Assembly (NCBI GenBank): GCA_010093705.1
Contig: MU006092.1
Coordinates: 254,623 to 318,622, forward strand
Length of the DNA stretch: 64,000 nt
Source: Patellaria atrata CBS 101060
Lineage: Eukaryota; Ascomycota; Dothideomycetes; Patellariales; Patellariaceae
Direction: 5' to 3'
Part shown: one piece after another, positions 41,764 through 59,818 of the stretch
Position numbering within the stretch: the stretch's first letter is position 1
Layout: every line of letters starts with the position of its first letter
Made by a program: the position numbers and the translations under genes
Notes under the pieces: model-generated
Told to the model about the DNA's origin: nothing
Seen by the model: the letters and a program-made list of their open reading frames with translations, nothing else
Databases searched by the model: none

Positions 41764-43458
41764 TCATCCGGGCACCAAAATGCCGTCTTTGCAAAGGACA
41801 ACAACCTTCTTGAAGAACCGCCTCCACTGCAAAGGATCGCCCTTCGCCTTGACAAATCTTACTTCTACAAGCTCTTCGCTGATTCTCTCTGCCGTTATAG
41901 TTCCCTTCAATGCTTGCTGTCGAGTATCATGTGTATCGATTTTGATCCACACTTGACCCTCAGCTGCCTCTTGAACACGCGATGCTACGCCTAAGTTATG
42001 CAGCGCTTCGACCAGAAGTGGTGCAAGGAGCGACAACGAGAGCGGTGAGAGAAATCGTGCCAAGGAATACGCCGGCACGATGTCTCGAAATCGTTTGGCC
42101 ATCTGAGTGAGAGACAAAGGAACTGAAGGAGTCGGTGTAAACTGTGAAAGGGACGGATCATCCGCTATCTGATCTAACAAGCCATGGGATATGCGGGTGT
42201 GGTGCATAGGTTGACTTGCGCTGACGCCTGCTGCTGCAATCCTGGGAGGCTTCTCCCAGTCAAAGGGATTATTATCTAGTGGGGTCTCTGGCTGGGTTGC
42301 AGCAAATCTTGGAATATCTAGATCCATCGCATCATTTTGACTATCACGTTGTGATAATGTGGGTTGTGCGTTAAAGTCAATGCGTAGGTTCTCCAACATT
42401 TGCGTGGCGAGACTAATTGGGTTGGCAGCCGTACCTGATGAACTCAGATGAGGGTTATGCCGAGTAAACCAAGGATGAGTTCGAACTTCGTCCAGCGTAA
42501 ATCTCTCTTTGGGGTTAAGTTTTAGCATTCCTCGAAGCAAGGAAAGGATTTCAGAGGGGATCTTTTTCCAGAGATCATCGCCCATTCGGCCATTGCTCGC
42601 CACGTATTGATTGAATTCATAACTTTGTTGCGTAGGTTCATCCCATGGCGTGTTTCCGACGAGAAGAACGAATAGTACGACGCCACAAGACCAGATATCG
42701 CAGATGTCGGGTGCGTATCCTGAGGCGAGAATATCCTGCCGCTTGTGTCTCTTCCCAGAAACAATTTCCGGAGCAATGTATGGTGGGCTGCCACAGACTG
42801 TATTACACAGTCTTACCTGCGATTCTCCTACTTTTCTGAAAAGTGCCGCAAGTCCAAAATCGGCGAGTTTCAGATTGCCCTCACCTGAAAGTAGAATATT
42901 CTCTGGCTTGATATCTCTGTGTGCCACTCCTTTCGAATGCATATAACTGACAGCGCTGATCAATTGGGTGAAGTAAAAGTGTGCGATGTCCATTCCTACA
43001 CCGACATCTGCTTCAATCTTGTCGAAAAGATCTCCACCATCAGCCAACTCCATAGCAATCCAAGTCCACGATACATCTTCGCCTGAAGCGAGAAAATGTA
43101 TTATATTCTGATGCTTCCCTAGGAACTTGTGTAGAGCGAGCTCTTTTTGGAGTTGTTTCGGCTGTAGGCGTCCTTGACGAAATGCATGTGCCTTGTTGAT
43201 GAATTTGACGGCGATGACAGGTTTCGGTTGATCGGTGGGGCATGCTTTTCGTATACTAGGATTCCAGGTCAATAACGAGCTCATGTTAACATCGTGTATA
43301 CTTACAACGCGTATGCACCGAGTCCAATTGTCCGTGAGATGATGCGAAATGGTAGGTCGTCTGGCAGAGGTGTGGTTTGAGACTGGGCGTTTTATTTCAG
43401 TAACAGGTTGAGTGGACAAAGGGATCGTGTATCATACACTTGGTGGAGGAGCACCCAT
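41764..43458 (-). CDS. CHK1: DNA-damage checkpoint kinase Chk1
   Basis: Three exons on the minus strand: 43438-43458 (MGAPPPS), 43306-43382 and 41764-43255, giving 529 residues. Introns are 55 nt (GTATGA donor) and 50 nt (GTAAGT donor). The joints restore the Chk1 N-terminus: PLPDDLPFRIISRTIGLGAY|AFIRKA. Kinase landmarks are AVKFINK (catalytic Lys), HRDIKPENILL, DFGLA, CGSPPYIAPEIVSGKRH and DIWSCGVVLFVLLVGNTPWDEP. The C-terminal half includes an Asp/Pro-rich linker and a conserved regulatory region ending with RRFFKKVVVLCKDGILVPG. Chk1 is a Ser/Thr kinase activated by ATR-type kinases that blocks mitotic entry after DNA damage. An unspliced frame could start farther in, but it would lose the glycine-rich loop. 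It lies tandem with, and 796 bp from, the RGS gene stop. Confidence 0.95.
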
Positions 43459-44254
43459 TATTTATTATAGGATATTTGATCGTAGGTGTAAGTGCGTAAC
43501 TGTTTCGAGAGTTTCTCGTTGACTCGCACATGAAATGGTAGTTTGTAAACAAGTCGCGTTCCCCTTGGATAGAGGAGCGAGGTCACGTGCACTATTTTCG
43601 TAGGCTTTTATTGGAGTCAACCTTACTTCAGAGACAACACGAAAGATTAATAGCTAGAAACAAACGGAGGGTTCATATTAAGTGCGTTGAACCGCTACTT
43701 TATCATACATTTATAATCTGACGCATTCAAGCGCTAAGCCTCAAATATCCCAAATGGGTCCAAACCAACCTAAGTACCGTATCGGGCCAGCAAAGGCACA
43801 CGCTTGAAGCCGGAAAACCCACAACCCGCATCGCCATGGGATGTAAAGCAGGTTTCGAAAAGGACAAATAGCCACCTAACAACCGGTATTTTAATGAGAG
43901 CAGTGAATTTTTAGAAGTCCAGGAACGCCGTCTAAGGTGCCATGCAAGTGGATGAGAAGAGCAAATAAGCCCGAGCGAATTAATAGAAAAACGAGATCGA
44001 TGGAAATGCTGATTCCGAATATGACAGAGCAGGGTATGCGAACGGTAGCTTAGACAGTAAGCTGTTCAAGACGTCTCTGACCAGTCTGGGAAACCCTTGT
44101 AAGTGTAGGTCGCTGAGTGAACTGAAAGGGTCCACCAGTGGACATGATGAGGTATATTGGGTAACTTGAAATGTAGTAAGAGCTCAGTGTCCATCAAATC
44201 GTAATCTAAGGGGTATCCAGAAGTAAAGGGTCATGGGGCGAAATATGCAAAGGA
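43459..44254. other. CHK1 upstream / RGS downstream region
   Basis: These 796 bp include the CHK1 promoter and the 3' UTR of the RGS gene. No other gene is seen. Confidence 0.55.
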
Positions 44255-46925
44255 TTATGAGGTAGTGCTACGGGAAGAGGACGAGCCGAAGGTGCCACAC
44301 GAAAGGTTGTCTAGGTTTCGTTCTTGGAGAATTCGCGAATATCGGGGTTCTCTCATGAACTTTGGAACAGAGTCCTGGGAATTTATTAGCCGGTGATTGG
44401 ATGTGGATGAAAATGCAATGCTTACGCTAGCCATCAATTTGAAAACGGAGTTTTGTGCCTGGTCGAAAAGACTTGCAACCTCATCTAGACTCTTAATCAT
44501 GGCTTCGTCGTCACCAACAGCACGGGTCATACGTCCAGCAAGGGCAGTCCGCAAGCTATGGTCAATGTTGAGTTCACATGGAGATCCAGGCGCTAAGAAC
44601 GCGTTGTACAAGCCTATCACCAATCAGGAAGTGTTCATGACACAATCTCATGCACATGAGTAGAGAAACTTACTGTAAGCAGCTGCCAATGTCTCCCTGA
44701 TGACCTCCAACTTGGGCTTATTACCACCCCGCTTGGCATTTGCGTAGCCGGTCAAAAATTCGCTGACATCCAGATAGAAAGAAAGGTTTTCCTCGCAGTG
44801 CGTATCTCTCAAGAACTCTCGGAACAGCAGTCGTAATGCCGGATCACGAATGATTACCGACATCCTATTTGCGTTGGAATCTCTTGTCGAGCTAGCGGCA
44901 GGTCGGTCACCGTTCATAGATGGTTTGGGGCTATCCCGGTTCCACCCAGCTATTCTTTGTCCCTTGGGTGTGACATAGTAAATGGCTGCCTTAGTCGGTT
45001 GGAAACGAGTCGTTTGCGGGGTAAAAATTTCGACTGGAGCCATGAGTTCGTACTCGAGGAATAAGGTGCACATCTCGTACGTTTCACGCTTGTCAACCAT
45101 GGTGGTGCAGTCCATCAACCAATCCGATGCAGCTTTCCCCGTAAATGTATTTAGATAGACCTTGTCGTTGATCTTACGTTCTCGTGACATCTTGACACCA
45201 ACTAGGCCGGTAGAATAATCGTTCAATGAATCTGAGTCTGAACTGCTGCTGTTGCTCCTCACATTCGGACCTTCACTGCCCGCAAACCTCCTAAAAACTA
45301 CTTCGACGGTTGCCTGATCATGATTGAGTTTATCAGTGTCGACTTCTCGCTCTAAAATGACAAGATGCATAGTATTTCGCGGAGACTCCAGAACGTCGAA
45401 AACGTGACGCTGATTTATCCCGTTCCTCTGGCAGAAGCGCTGTAAGACTTGCATGCCTTTCGGTGTCAGTTGCCATACAGCGCTCTTCGAGCCAAAATCA
45501 TTCTTTCCGTCAGCCGATTCACAGAAATGGGCTTCGAGAAATTTGGTGCACACAGATTTTGCCATCTCTTTCGCCATGGAAAAGGTAGTTGTGGTCGTTG
45601 TCGTAACTATCCTAGATGGATCTTTCGGATCTGGCATACGGTTTGACTGAGAGAACTTAAGAGAACCGAGATTAGTGATAGCCTCATCGGAAGTAAACGT
45701 GTGTTCGATCTTCTGGAACCGTACTCGATGCGGAGTGAGCGGTAAGCTCACCATGAGCGTCGAGAAAAGGTCCTTGAAGTCCTGCTCAAGGGTCAGATTA
45801 GCAAATCTAGTATTCTTATACATTGCAATGAATTGAAGTGTAATTGGAGAATGACACCGGCGACAATGGATATAATGTAGGTGAGCTCAATCTCCACGTG
45901 AGTTGGTGTTGTGTTACGAGGTCAAGATGCAGAAGACAAGAATTGCCGCGACCACAGTTCCACAAAACATTCGCACAACGACGATCTAGAGCGGCGCTAA
46001 CAATGCTTCCTGACAGGAGTAGACAGCTCGACTGTTTGTGCAACTCACTACATGTCGCCGAGTGCCTCCTATCTCGGTGCCCGGTCTCGGCACGATTTAC
46101 CGACGACACAAACGAATCGATCACGAGTTACAAGTTCAAAGAAGTGAATTATTTTTTTTTTTTACTTACTCTTGTAAATGGCCGCTCATCATCCGTCATA
46201 CGGAGGAGCCGTGAAGATGTTTGGTGCATTTTACGGTCCAAAGCACCTTTCGAAGGTGGAAGAGAACCTATTGTTTCCGGCGTAGTCGGACGAGCAAGCT
46301 CGAAGAGCTTGCCGTCTCGCAGGTTACCGAGTCTGTCAACCGGATCCTGGTGAGGTGTCCCAGACCGAAGTGGCGTGGTAGGACTGTGAGACCGTGTTAT
46401 AGCCGGAATCGGATTGTCCTGCGTCTGTGGCAGCACCTCCACAGAGTGTGTATCCGGGTATTCGGGTTGGTCGCGTGGTTGCAGCTGCGAATAACTCGAT
46501 CTGCGAAGAGTTCTTTGAAGCCTCGAGGCAGCGGTCGGTTTTCGGAACTTTGTGGATGGACGCTTGTCACCGTTGGCTAGAGATGAAATATCTCTATTGT
46601 CCCAAGTATACAAGCTAGGCGAAGCACCACGTCGAACGGTCGAACCAGCGCATGCGTCGGCGGTCGTAGAGTGGCTTCGACGATGGGATACAGATATCTG
46701 AGCTTGGTCAAGGAGGCTTGCCGGAGCAGAAGTCGTAGAGACGTTCGTTCGTGAAGTGGGAGATTCGGGTTTGGAAGCGGCAGTACGGTCCCGTCCTCTG
46801 GAGAATTGGTAGGGGAGTCGAGTTGTGCTGTTGAGTCGACCGGACGATGTTGAAGATGTGTATGAAGGGAAAGGGTGCTGAAGGTGAGTGAAAAGAGGAG
46901 GTAGAGGAGTACTAGTATGCGACAT
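44255..46925 (-). CDS. flbA: Regulator of G-protein signalling, FlbA/Sst2 type
   Basis: Four exons: 46170-46925, 44674-45781, 44426-44613 and 44255-44374, giving 723 residues, close to Aspergillus FlbA (about 719). Introns are 388, 60 and 51 nt. Exon 1 encodes a Ser/Thr/Pro-rich N-terminus ending LLRMTDDERPFTR; the joint to DFKDLFSTLMVSLPL is the conserved FlbA junction. Two DEP-type modules follow (about 253-345, SNRMPDPKDPSRIVTTT; and about 445-540, FTGKAASDWLMDCTTM). A C-terminal RGS domain (about 560-715) has LRLLFREFLRDTHCEENLSF and PKFMREPRYSRILQ. FlbA accelerates GTP hydrolysis on a G-alpha subunit and thereby lets conidiation replace vegetative growth. The ATG at 46925 is the first in frame; an upstream GTG is not a plausible start. 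The first intron is unusually long and starts with GTAAGT and an A12 run. Confidence 0.95.
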
Positions 46926-55397: not shown

Positions 55398-58300
55398 TCA
55401 AACAATCCCATCCCCAGCCGAATGCATAAACCTCCTCTTCCTCTTCACAAACACCTTCCTCCTCAACCCGGCCTTGACAATCTGAGGCACAGGACTCTTA
55501 TCCCTCGTCTCCTTCTGCCGCGGTATCCTCATCTTCATCTTATCCGGATTTCTCGTCCGCTTGCCCCTCTTCCCATCCTCATCCTCGCTCTCGGGCATAA
55601 TGTCGACCGGGATGCCCCCGACCGGAGTCCACCAGTCGCTGTCGTAATTATCGAGAGGATCCCGAACGAGGTCGAAAGCCGAGAAAGATTCGTGCAGGAA
55701 TCGATCGCGCGGGTGCTCACCCCATGTTGACAGCTGGCGGAGGACTCGACTTTGTGCGTTTTGTGCAGAGCTTGATGCGACGGAGGTTGGAGAGAGCGGT
55801 TCGAAGTTCGAAGTTGGAGAGTCTAAGTCTTGAACGTAGCCATCGATCTCACCGCTGACTTCACATAAGATTGACTCGGTTGACTTCATTGTAGTGTCGT
55901 AAAAGGAGTCAGGCGGGGTGTTTAGAATCGGTTCTTCGACTTTAGGGTGCATGAAAGGTAACTGGTAGGAAGTCTTCTCGTATGGAAGTGATGGGCCTTC
56001 TTGTGTCCAGTGACAAAGAGAAGGCAGAGTTGGTGCCCTAAGGCAGAGATCGTCCAGTTGCTGACGTGAAGTGTAATCAAGCGAGTCGAGGAACTCTTTT
56101 CCAAGGACGATATCGTATGGTGCATCAGACGACACAACGAAAGGTATAGTATAGTGAGCTCTTTCTCCAAAAGAAAATGGTAAATGAATGCGTTTCAGAT
56201 CGAGTGCTTGCACTCTGAAATTCGAGAAACCTCGGTCCGAAGAAGAAAGAGACTGAAGATGGTCCAACAAGAATGTGGTGGATATGGTGTTAAAAGAGCA
56301 AGAGATGTCTACTAAGGCCCCCACACCCAGATCACCTAGTTTGCTATGCATAAGTGCAGGATAAGGCTTTGACTCAGTAGATTCATGCTCTTGAAATAAG
56401 TCTAGAGTTTGACTCAGGTAATGGACATTGCTCCATGAAAGGGTCTGGTCCGATCTGTTCGAATCTGAAAGAAAAAAAGCTCTCAGGACCAAAAGCGATT
56501 GGAAAATGGCTGCTTGTTGCACGAAGAGGCTGAAAGTGTAAGCATCAATACTCTCGGTGAGAGGAATGCTATGAGATGAGGAGTAATTAGGCGGATCCGT
56601 CTCTGTATATGTCTGCACAACCAAGTCATCGCAAGACATCTGACACGTTGGAAGTGTTGACGGAAAGAGTTGGCCATAATAATCTAGGTGTGAAGTCTCT
56701 TTACAATAAGAGGAGTCGTTTCTAGATCTGTGACTTAACAGCGCTCTCAGGGCTCTCGTAGTATTCAAGATCCGCTTCCAGAGAGAAGTTGTCATGCCCG
56801 ACTGTCTGGATGTGAGTTCAGAAGAATCTTGAAGCATTTCATAACACTCATAACATTTGGTGACTTTGTCGTTCTGATGGCCCTTAGTGCATTCTCCAAA
56901 AGGAACACTGAGAGGTTTCATGAAATCCCCTAGTCGAAGATTCTCGCCGTGTTCGAATAACCCAACAACATACGTCAGCATTTTAGAACGTTGCTGACAG
57001 TCGAGGAAAGTTGAGTGTTCCGTAGTAGACGGCGTATAACGACAGCTGCCGCGATGAAGCCAGTTTAGAAATGGGCACAGTCGCCAATCAAGGAGACTTG
57101 CCAGATCATACTGTGCAGGGAATCCATTCTGCGAACGCACAATGCATTCTGCAGAGGGAGGTACTAAAGTTGAGAAGGGACCTAGCGTGAGAGCTTTATA
57201 AGAGTGAAAAAAGATATTCTGGGCAGCAGGAGCCACACCTGCAGCATCAAGGCAAGATATGCAAGCACCAAATGGGTCTCCTTTCCTTATTTTAGAGACG
57301 ATCTCTGCAGCTTTTGGTCGGTTGGATGCGTTGAATGCCAACATGTCCTTGCAGATACTCAGCAACTCAATGGCCTTACGCTTAACAGTGCAATGACGTA
57401 AAGTGTTAATCCATAATTGGATTTGAGGAAGCTTGGTCTGGTATGTATTCTGTTTCTTGTTCTGCTGGGGAGAAGCATCGATAAACTGTCGTAGATCGGA
57501 GAGCGAACCATCTAATAAGACCGTAAGAATTTCGAGGAAGACACAGCCAAGGGAGAAGATGTCGGCAGATCTTCCATGCTTCTTGTGTTGGGCTATCTCG
57601 GGAGCAGCATACATTGGGGTCATAGGACTGATGCTGGAAGATGTTGAATCTGTATCAGAGACTACCCGTGATATTCCAAAGTCCGAAAGGTATACTGTTG
57701 TATCACGACCACTACCGGAAATGAGGATGTTTGCAGGTTTTACATCGCCATGACGAATCCGATTTGAGTGAACATGTGACATTGCTGAGGCGAGACAACC
57801 AACCCAAGACCAAATATTATTATCTTGGTCTGACGCGGATTTCGATGTCTCCAAGAAATCTTTGAGGTTGCGCTCTGCGACAGGATACATGATGATGCTG
57901 AGAGTAGTTATCTCATTGTACGCGGCAGCCGCTTTCAGGATATGCGGATGATGGAGTCGCCTCATAATATTGACCTCCAATGCGAAGCGACGAAGAACGG
58001 ACGAGCGTCCTTTACTATTTTTGATCTGTTTTCGAGCAAACACAGCTCCCGAATTCGTGCTTTGGACTTTATCAACGCGACCATAGGTTCCTTCTCCAAG
58101 TGATCCTAGAGAGACAAAAGGACGAATAGGGAGTGAGACCTTGGTTACTGCTCTAGATCTCCTTGGTGCTGGGATTTGAGAAAAGTCCCAAGACGTGTTA
58201 TCTTGTAACATACTCAGATTCTGTGTATTGGAGAGATTCATGTACCTCTGCTCATATGAATTATCAAATTCATTACTGAACGTGCCATCAAATTCTCCAT

Positions 58301-59818
58301 TGAATGTATAGTAATCATAATTGTCTCCGAGCGGGCCAAAACTAGGGTCATTATTATCTGAGCCTGGATTTGTGTCTTTGCCGTTATTACCGGCTCCTGC
58401 ATCGCCGCCTTGGTCAGGGGGGTTATTATCAGGAGAATCGTCCTGGTCATTATCATCATCATCAGAGTGGTATGTAGGAGGTTCGTCCTCTGGCCAAGGA
58501 TCCCTCCAACGGTCCATGGTCCACGGTCCTCCAGGAATTTTGTTTTTAAAGTGACGAAAGATATGTGTATTTCGCTTTTTCCAGTTGAAAAACCGCTGAC
58601 CACAAAATCCGCAGCGCCTTTTGAATGTTGGCGGAACATCGAACTTCGACTTGTTCACGAGATCATCAAGTCGCTCCACGAATAGTTGATTCCGGTTCTT
58701 GTCTAATAAATCTGCGTGTTTATTTTTGATGTGTTCGATTAATTTGTCCTTACGATGTGCGATAAAGTGATGACGCCGTGATTGAGTGCGACACCGAATA
58801 CATGACCAGATCTCCTGTGGTTGATTGATTTCTTCATGACGTTGCCAATCATCCTTTCTTTTACTCTGGTAACCACACCCCGAAGTGCAATGCAAATCAC
58901 CCGAAGGATTCTTCTGGGGATGACTGGATCGTGTGCACTGACCTGAAGCTCTTTGAATGTAGTCATTGATACTGACTCTCACGTCTTCCGGATTGGCTGG
59001 ATTAGTGACTTCCGCAGCAAGAACTTGTGGGGTATCTCCAGGAATAGAATCCTCCGTTTTTATTCCATCGGAGTTTGAGTTCGAAACATCGACTTTGTGA
59101 CCAACATCGACTTTAGGGACATCCTCGAGCTTTCTTCCAAGCTTATATTCAAGCCAGGCAACCAATGGCTTTTTTGGAAGACGAGTGAGCGTAACCAAGG
59201 CTTTGATTTCAAGCCTTTCCGGTGGACGATTCCCTTCGATCTCCAACCAGAATTCTAATTGCTTTCGAGCCTTGTCTGGGATTGTAGGAGATGTCTGGTT
59301 TACGATATCCTGTTCACGTCGTTGAAATTTCCGGGGTTGTTCGGGTGAGTTGACATCAGGACTTTGGTCATTATCTGACCGTCGTCTTTTTTTTCTCACT
59401 TGTCTTTGCGGAGGGACCTGCAATGATAGTTTAGGTGCAGATGGGGAGGCTGTCGATTCTTTGGCTGAGTTAGGGCGACGAGACATTTCGGGGGATAGAT
59501 TTCGATTTCCATCCCTTCGAGCCGTGTTGTAAGGAGACGTTTGAGTGCCGTATGCTTCGTCGGTAGTGGTAGATTGCTGATGATTCAATCAGTTGTTGTT
59601 CTTGTAGAACAGAGGGTTGGCTCACTAACCAATAATTGAGGGTCTAAACACTTATCATCCAAGAGAGCCTTAGTGGAAGATGTGTAGTTGTGTCGTGCAA
59701 AGGGTGAGCCAACTGAAAAGGCATTAACATGTTGGTCCTGAGGTAAGTATGTACTCGGAGAAGCCGTAGGAGTGCCCCGGGGGCGGCGAGCCCCCGAAGG
59801 GGCGGTAAAAGGAATCAT
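55398..59818 (-). CDS. Multidomain protein: homeodomain-like, C2H2 fingers, protein kinase, retropepsin-like domain
   Basis: Two exons: 59630-59818 and 55398-59576. The 53-nt intron has GTTAGT donor, CTGAT branch and CATCAG acceptor. The protein has 1,455 residues; exon 2 alone has no ATG at its open-frame start. Residues about 130-150 are basic and NLS-like (RKKRRR). Residues 160-210 hold a homeodomain-like helical segment (KALVTLTRLPKKPLVAWLEYK). C2H2/C2HC-type fingers lie at 290-351 (C-x-C and H-x-H pairs) and 383-407 (CGFCGQRF...HIFRH). An Asp/Asn/Gly-rich linker follows. The kinase at about 550-830 has GEGTYGRV, catalytic-type Lys579, HGDVKPANIL (HGD for HRD, 672-679), DFG 695-697 and APE. 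Residues about 1147-1230 resemble retropepsins, with ALVDISCSFNTIS and PYDIVLGKEFLDSL; the first motif reads D-I-S where active enzymes have D-T/S-G. I know no named family with this set. A nuclear, DNA-contacting kinase is an inference. Confidence 0.85.
59774..59803 (-). promoter_or_regulatory. Two adjacent GC hairpins just after the kinase start codon
   Basis: In the mRNA sense the first unit reads GCCCCTTCGGGGGC, a perfect 5-bp stem closing a UUCG tetraloop with a C-G pair. The second, GCCCCCGGGGC, is self-complementary. The first begins 16 nt from the A of the start codon of the finger-kinase gene. It encodes part of PSGARRPRGT. The local GC content is far above its surroundings. An effect on initiation is an inference. 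Confidence 0.6.

Follow-up and report, generated by a model that had tools for sequence, protein, structure and literature searches.

A single open frame on the minus strand of a Patellaria atrata contig (MU006092.1) joins a homeodomain-like segment that lacks its recognition residues, an array of C2H2 fingers with clear homologues and a protein kinase domain with its motifs in place, and then continues for about 620 residues that matched nothing in our searches. We favor, with a probability of roughly 0.55, the reading that this gene is a chimera of the fungal homeobox-C2H2 module and a kinase type repeated in its own genome, and that its product acts as a localized nuclear kinase whose C terminus serves in docking or pairing.

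The frame (55398–59588, minus, of the window, by which we mean the whole 64,000-nucleotide stretch that was analysed) comprises 1396 codons, about 4.2 kb without a stop, and is the longest of the window, the runner-up measuring 555 codons from stop to stop. The joining of homeodomain-like segment, fingers and kinase in one host frame, which an earlier note made from the DNA letters had claimed, is thus confirmed. A predicted GT-AG intron (59629–59577) links the frame in phase to an exon 1 that starts with an ATG at 59818, giving a 1455-aa model that spans 55398–59818, as the earlier note had it. Residue numbers refer to the 1396-aa frame unless stated; those of the 1455-aa model are higher by 59. 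In the latter numbering the kinase motifs GEGTYGRV (557), HGDVKPAN (672), DFG (695) and APE (721) and the C-terminal motifs ALVDISCSFN (1150) and PYDIVLGKEF (1216) are all present. When the 1455-aa model was divided into 15 segments, a codon score derived from eight long open frames at other loci of the same genome favored the coding frame over its five alternatives in all 15, with a narrow margin in the last segment (0.182 coding compared with 0.172 antisense). The C-terminal tail (55401–56030, minus) has a third-position G+C of 0.61, against 0.41–0.44 elsewhere in the gene, but even there the codon score prefers the coding frame. The parts of the gene are as follows.

55398–59818, minus: whole predicted gene, 1455 aa (open frame, intron model and codon score)
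59630–59818, minus: predicted exon 1, 63 aa (intron model; weak positive codon score, 0.088)
59577–59629, minus: predicted GT-AG intron, 53 nt (GTTAGT donor, CTGAT element, CAG acceptor)
59124–59285, minus: degenerate homeodomain-like segment, residues 102–155 (shuffles, three-helix model and fold searches; no Pfam homeobox match)
58491–58895, minus: three-finger array, residues 232–366, finger 1 lacking its last His (homologues; alignment with homeobox-C2H2 proteins of the same genome)
57294–58109, minus: protein kinase domain, residues 494–765, HRD replaced by HGD (PF00069, E 3.2e-44; PDB kinases)
56367–57293, minus: post-kinase stretch, residues 766–1074, without any match (searches empty)
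56031–56366, minus: retropepsin-like segment, residues 1075–1186, D-I-S in place of D-T/S-G (suggestive only)
55401–56030, minus: C-terminal tail, residues 1187–1396, ending in basic clusters (third-position G+C 0.61)

The kinase, which had been recognized from its motifs, is borne out by Pfam, where the domain matched PF00069 at an E value of 3.2e-44 with 151.8 bits (cut-off 31.7), far above chance, and by the PDB, whose top kinase match reached an E value of 2.6e-28. In addition to passing the Pfam cut-off, the domain contains the G-loop, the Lys, the catalytic Asp and Asn, the DFG and the APE of a eukaryotic protein kinase. A search of its own genome (28.3 million bases in 46 contigs) gave 33 matches at E ≤0.001 (94 candidates, 33 scored), the gene itself included. 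Seven further loci (L002–L008) were fetched from the other 32 matches, and their frames, read by eye, hold eight kinase domains with a catalytic loop similar to that of the query. These domains are 34–43% identical to the query kinase and, like it, mostly non-RD (by eye, eight of the nine domains, query included). Unlike the query, they show no finger module in the frames that were read by eye. Kinases without the HRD arginine are often controlled by a partner or by pairing, and not via activation-loop phosphorylation. The same survey showed a tandem pair of kinase domains in one 779-aa open frame (L003; G000:C5:743748–745616) and, by eye, another frame in which ankyrin-like repeats come after a kinase of comparable style (L007; G000:C14, around 198187–198636). 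The window itself contains another kinase frame (41767–43431, Pfam E 5e-56) in the vicinity of one that encodes DEP and RGS domains (44651–45886), together occupying 41767–45886 on the minus strand; the DEP/RGS frame is reminiscent of an FlbA/Sst2-type regulator. A passage in PMC6001611 gives an average of 41 unclassified kinases for Fusarium genomes, which may or may not be of the present type.

The N-terminal assignments are mixed. None of 10,000 shuffles reached the score that the homeodomain-like segment obtained with five homeodomains from the same genome, and structure prediction, which the earlier note had proposed together with a fold search, yielded three helices with a resemblance to homeodomains. 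However, the Pfam homeobox search gave no match up to E 10, and the Asn and Arg of the recognition helix, which are as a rule invariant in homeodomains, are lost, with Tyr and Leu at the aligned places. The segment is thus real but degenerate. Similarly, the finger array aligns with six related proteins, but a strict C2H2 pattern matches finger 3 only; in the alignment the ligands are complete in fingers 2 and 3, and finger 1 lacks its last His. When residues 90–440 were searched against the protein collection, three proteins were found at E ≤10 among 1693 candidates: P0002, a C2H2 protein from Glonium stellatum (E 1.5e-25), and the near-identical P0003 (E 1.7e-10) and P0004 (E 2.5e-10), both of which contain ankyrin and NACHT-type domains.

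The combination of homeodomain and fingers is not in itself unusual. On sequence resemblance, it is the known fungal homeobox-C2H2 module. In the P. atrata genome, a homeodomain and fingers share one frame at two loci (L036 and L044) and lie in neighboring frames at a third (L035), a fourth (L034) has fingers, and the fingers of all four can be aligned with those of the query. Passages in PMC11121360 count homeobox-C2H2 genes as five of the nine homeobox genes of Phoma sorghina and give seven each for Verticillium dahliae and Fusarium oxysporum; the C2H2-homeobox family also appears in a figure legend of PMC2779367. As in L035, L036, L044 and the published PsHOX5–PsHOX9 and C2H2-homeobox subfamily, a homeodomain-like segment in the query is followed by alignable fingers. 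The query differs in its lost recognition helix and its incomplete finger 1, and it continues into a kinase and about 620 residues of unmatched sequence. P0003 and P0004 share with the query the homeodomain-like and finger region, including a GGPWTMDRW stretch, but have ankyrin repeats and NACHT-type NTPase sequence in place of the kinase; both may be flawed gene models. The query itself does not appear to be a fungal NOD-like receptor, as neither NACHT nor NB-ARC is among the three Pfam families reported for it up to E 10. Because P0003 and P0004 carry the module and a passage in PMC4986451 lists PKinase among the domains of fungal NOD-like receptors, domain exchange among signaling proteins is plausible, and the position of the module before ankyrin/NACHT-type sequence in the two proteins hints at such exchange.

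In contrast to these regions, the C terminus gave no relatives. None was found at E ≤10 for residues 770–1330 among 7670 candidates of the protein collection or for residues 1054–1204 among 646 candidates, in searches that cover proteins of similar total length sharing short words. The basic clusters at the end of the tail are pattern matches only. The earlier note had seen a retropepsin-like domain here, in a segment originally chosen by eye. Its two landmark motifs line up with those of Ddi1 and other retropepsins, both in the MAFFT alignment and in hhalign. With a seven-sequence profile the segment (1069–1186, the limits also used for hhalign) scored 6.8 bits, a value that 0 of 10,000 shuffles reached, and it ranked first of 1591 pieces (795 natural, 795 reversed and the query), the decoys excluding retropepsin and gene loci (L001, L009–L027, L029 and L038–L042) and any frame with the segment. 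Run over the whole 1396-aa frame, the same profile found its best match at 1082–1109, and among 64 hhalign windows each of the top five contains the first motif. The absolute values are tiny, however, with 0.5 bits for the whole frame and an hhalign probability of 1.9, and in the hhalign control 14 of 1000 shuffles were as good as the segment. The profile had been grown from four to seven sequences after a weaker first result: with four sequences (segment limits 1062–1190), the score of the segment was equaled or exceeded by 10 of 5000 shuffles and by 3 of 268 natural pieces, these decoys coming from the window and P0001–P0004 and including the gene's own pieces. Two sub-profiles let through 275 and 94 of 10,000 shuffles, so that the significance of the home-made profile scores varies with the profile, from 0 to 275 of 10,000 shuffles.

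Other methods did not recover the fold. Pfam matched three control retropepsins of the same genome but gave no match to the segment up to E 10, and the PDB sequences gave none. The structure model of the segment was poor (pLDDT 43), and its matches were uninformative, with no retropepsin among the best 50 of 161 Foldseek matches or the best 50 of 240 VIA-align rows. Retropepsins have the catalytic signature D-T/S-G. The segment reads D-I-S, with neither the Thr/Ser nor the Gly, and so is no canonical aspartic protease and is not expected to have canonical activity, which upholds the argument against proteolysis that had been drawn from this motif. Thus, the segment resembles Ddi1 and other retropepsins in two landmark motifs and departs from them in its signature and its Pfam and PDB silence; the domain assignment itself was not confirmed, and we treat it as a suggestive lead, not a result. 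In line with the earlier note, the C terminus might be a genuine retropepsin fold that the host has captured and that, though inactive, binds peptides or pairs two molecules of the kinase. We regard this possibility as tentative, the seven-sequence profile and the motif register speaking for it and the choice by eye, the dependence on the profile and the failure of Pfam against it.

The genome does hold a better host candidate for a retropepsin-like domain than this segment, a 593-aa open frame (L038:1563–3341, plus; G000:C1, about 2078062–2079840) with an intact D-T-G, a hydrophobic stretch toward the N terminus and, judged by eye, a long coiled-coil-like region. Its domain scored 24.6 bits with PF13650, barely over the cut-off, and 27.6 with PF13975, barely under it. 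Protease domains of retroelements, each interrupted by one to five stop codons as expected for inactivated copies, were seen on contigs C8, C17 (near 101.5 kb), C29, C31, C40 and C43, and open retrotransposon frames on C22 (L039) and C40 (L042).

How, then, might the protein work? The loss of the recognition residues suggests that the module makes contact with a partner or binds DNA loosely and does not exert sequence-specific control. Alternatively, the module may have kept its specific DNA binding, in which case the protein would be a transcription factor and would phosphorylate other factors at the genes that it targets. The ligands of fingers 2 and 3 are retained and intact homeobox-C2H2 proteins are present in the same genome, but with the helix residues, the last His of finger 1 and a Pfam homeobox match all missing, we consider this unlikely. 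The loss of the helix residues and of the finger ligand also counts against the favored reading, as it weakens DNA contact. The gene could also be a relic, left by a fusion that is recent or in decay and has no function of its own, and the degenerate homeodomain and finger 1 and the lack of any C-terminal relative in the searches made would fit such a history; the 4.2 kb open without a stop, the coding-frame codon usage throughout and the intact kinase motifs make it the least probable of the readings. In the favored reading of a localized nuclear kinase, the N-terminal module, together with the basic clusters, would carry the kinase to the nucleus and keep it near chromatin or a nuclear partner, so that the protein would act as a localized kinase rather than a classical transcription factor. 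The orphan C terminus of about 620 residues would be a docking or self-pairing region. Retropepsins are dimers; a fold of this kind in the C terminus, if there is one, would therefore serve in pairing, though catalytically dead. A still more specific version, in which the worn-down module takes the non-RD kinase to chromatin and a dead, host-captured retropepsin pairs two copies of this nuclear regulator and so turns the kinase on, is in our estimate very improbable, though a shade less so than a relic. We know of no precedent for a dead retropepsin as a kinase pairing module, which is hypothetical here.

The earlier description of an undescribed system was too strong. The parts are of known kinds, and the defensible claim is that of an unusual domain fusion observed in one genome. 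Neither a homeobox-C2H2-kinase fusion nor a retropepsin-kinase fusion was found among the titles and abstract openings listed for the open literature, the combination recurred in no other protein found in this analysis, and the searches with residues 90–440, 770–1330 and 1054–1204 found no orthologue of the whole protein, which is weak evidence of absence. These findings suggest that filamentous fungi place the homeobox-finger module in proteins other than transcription factors as well, since it precedes a kinase here and ankyrin/NACHT-type sequence in two database proteins. The gene therefore offers a direct route to asking how fungi wire new signaling proteins to the nucleus.
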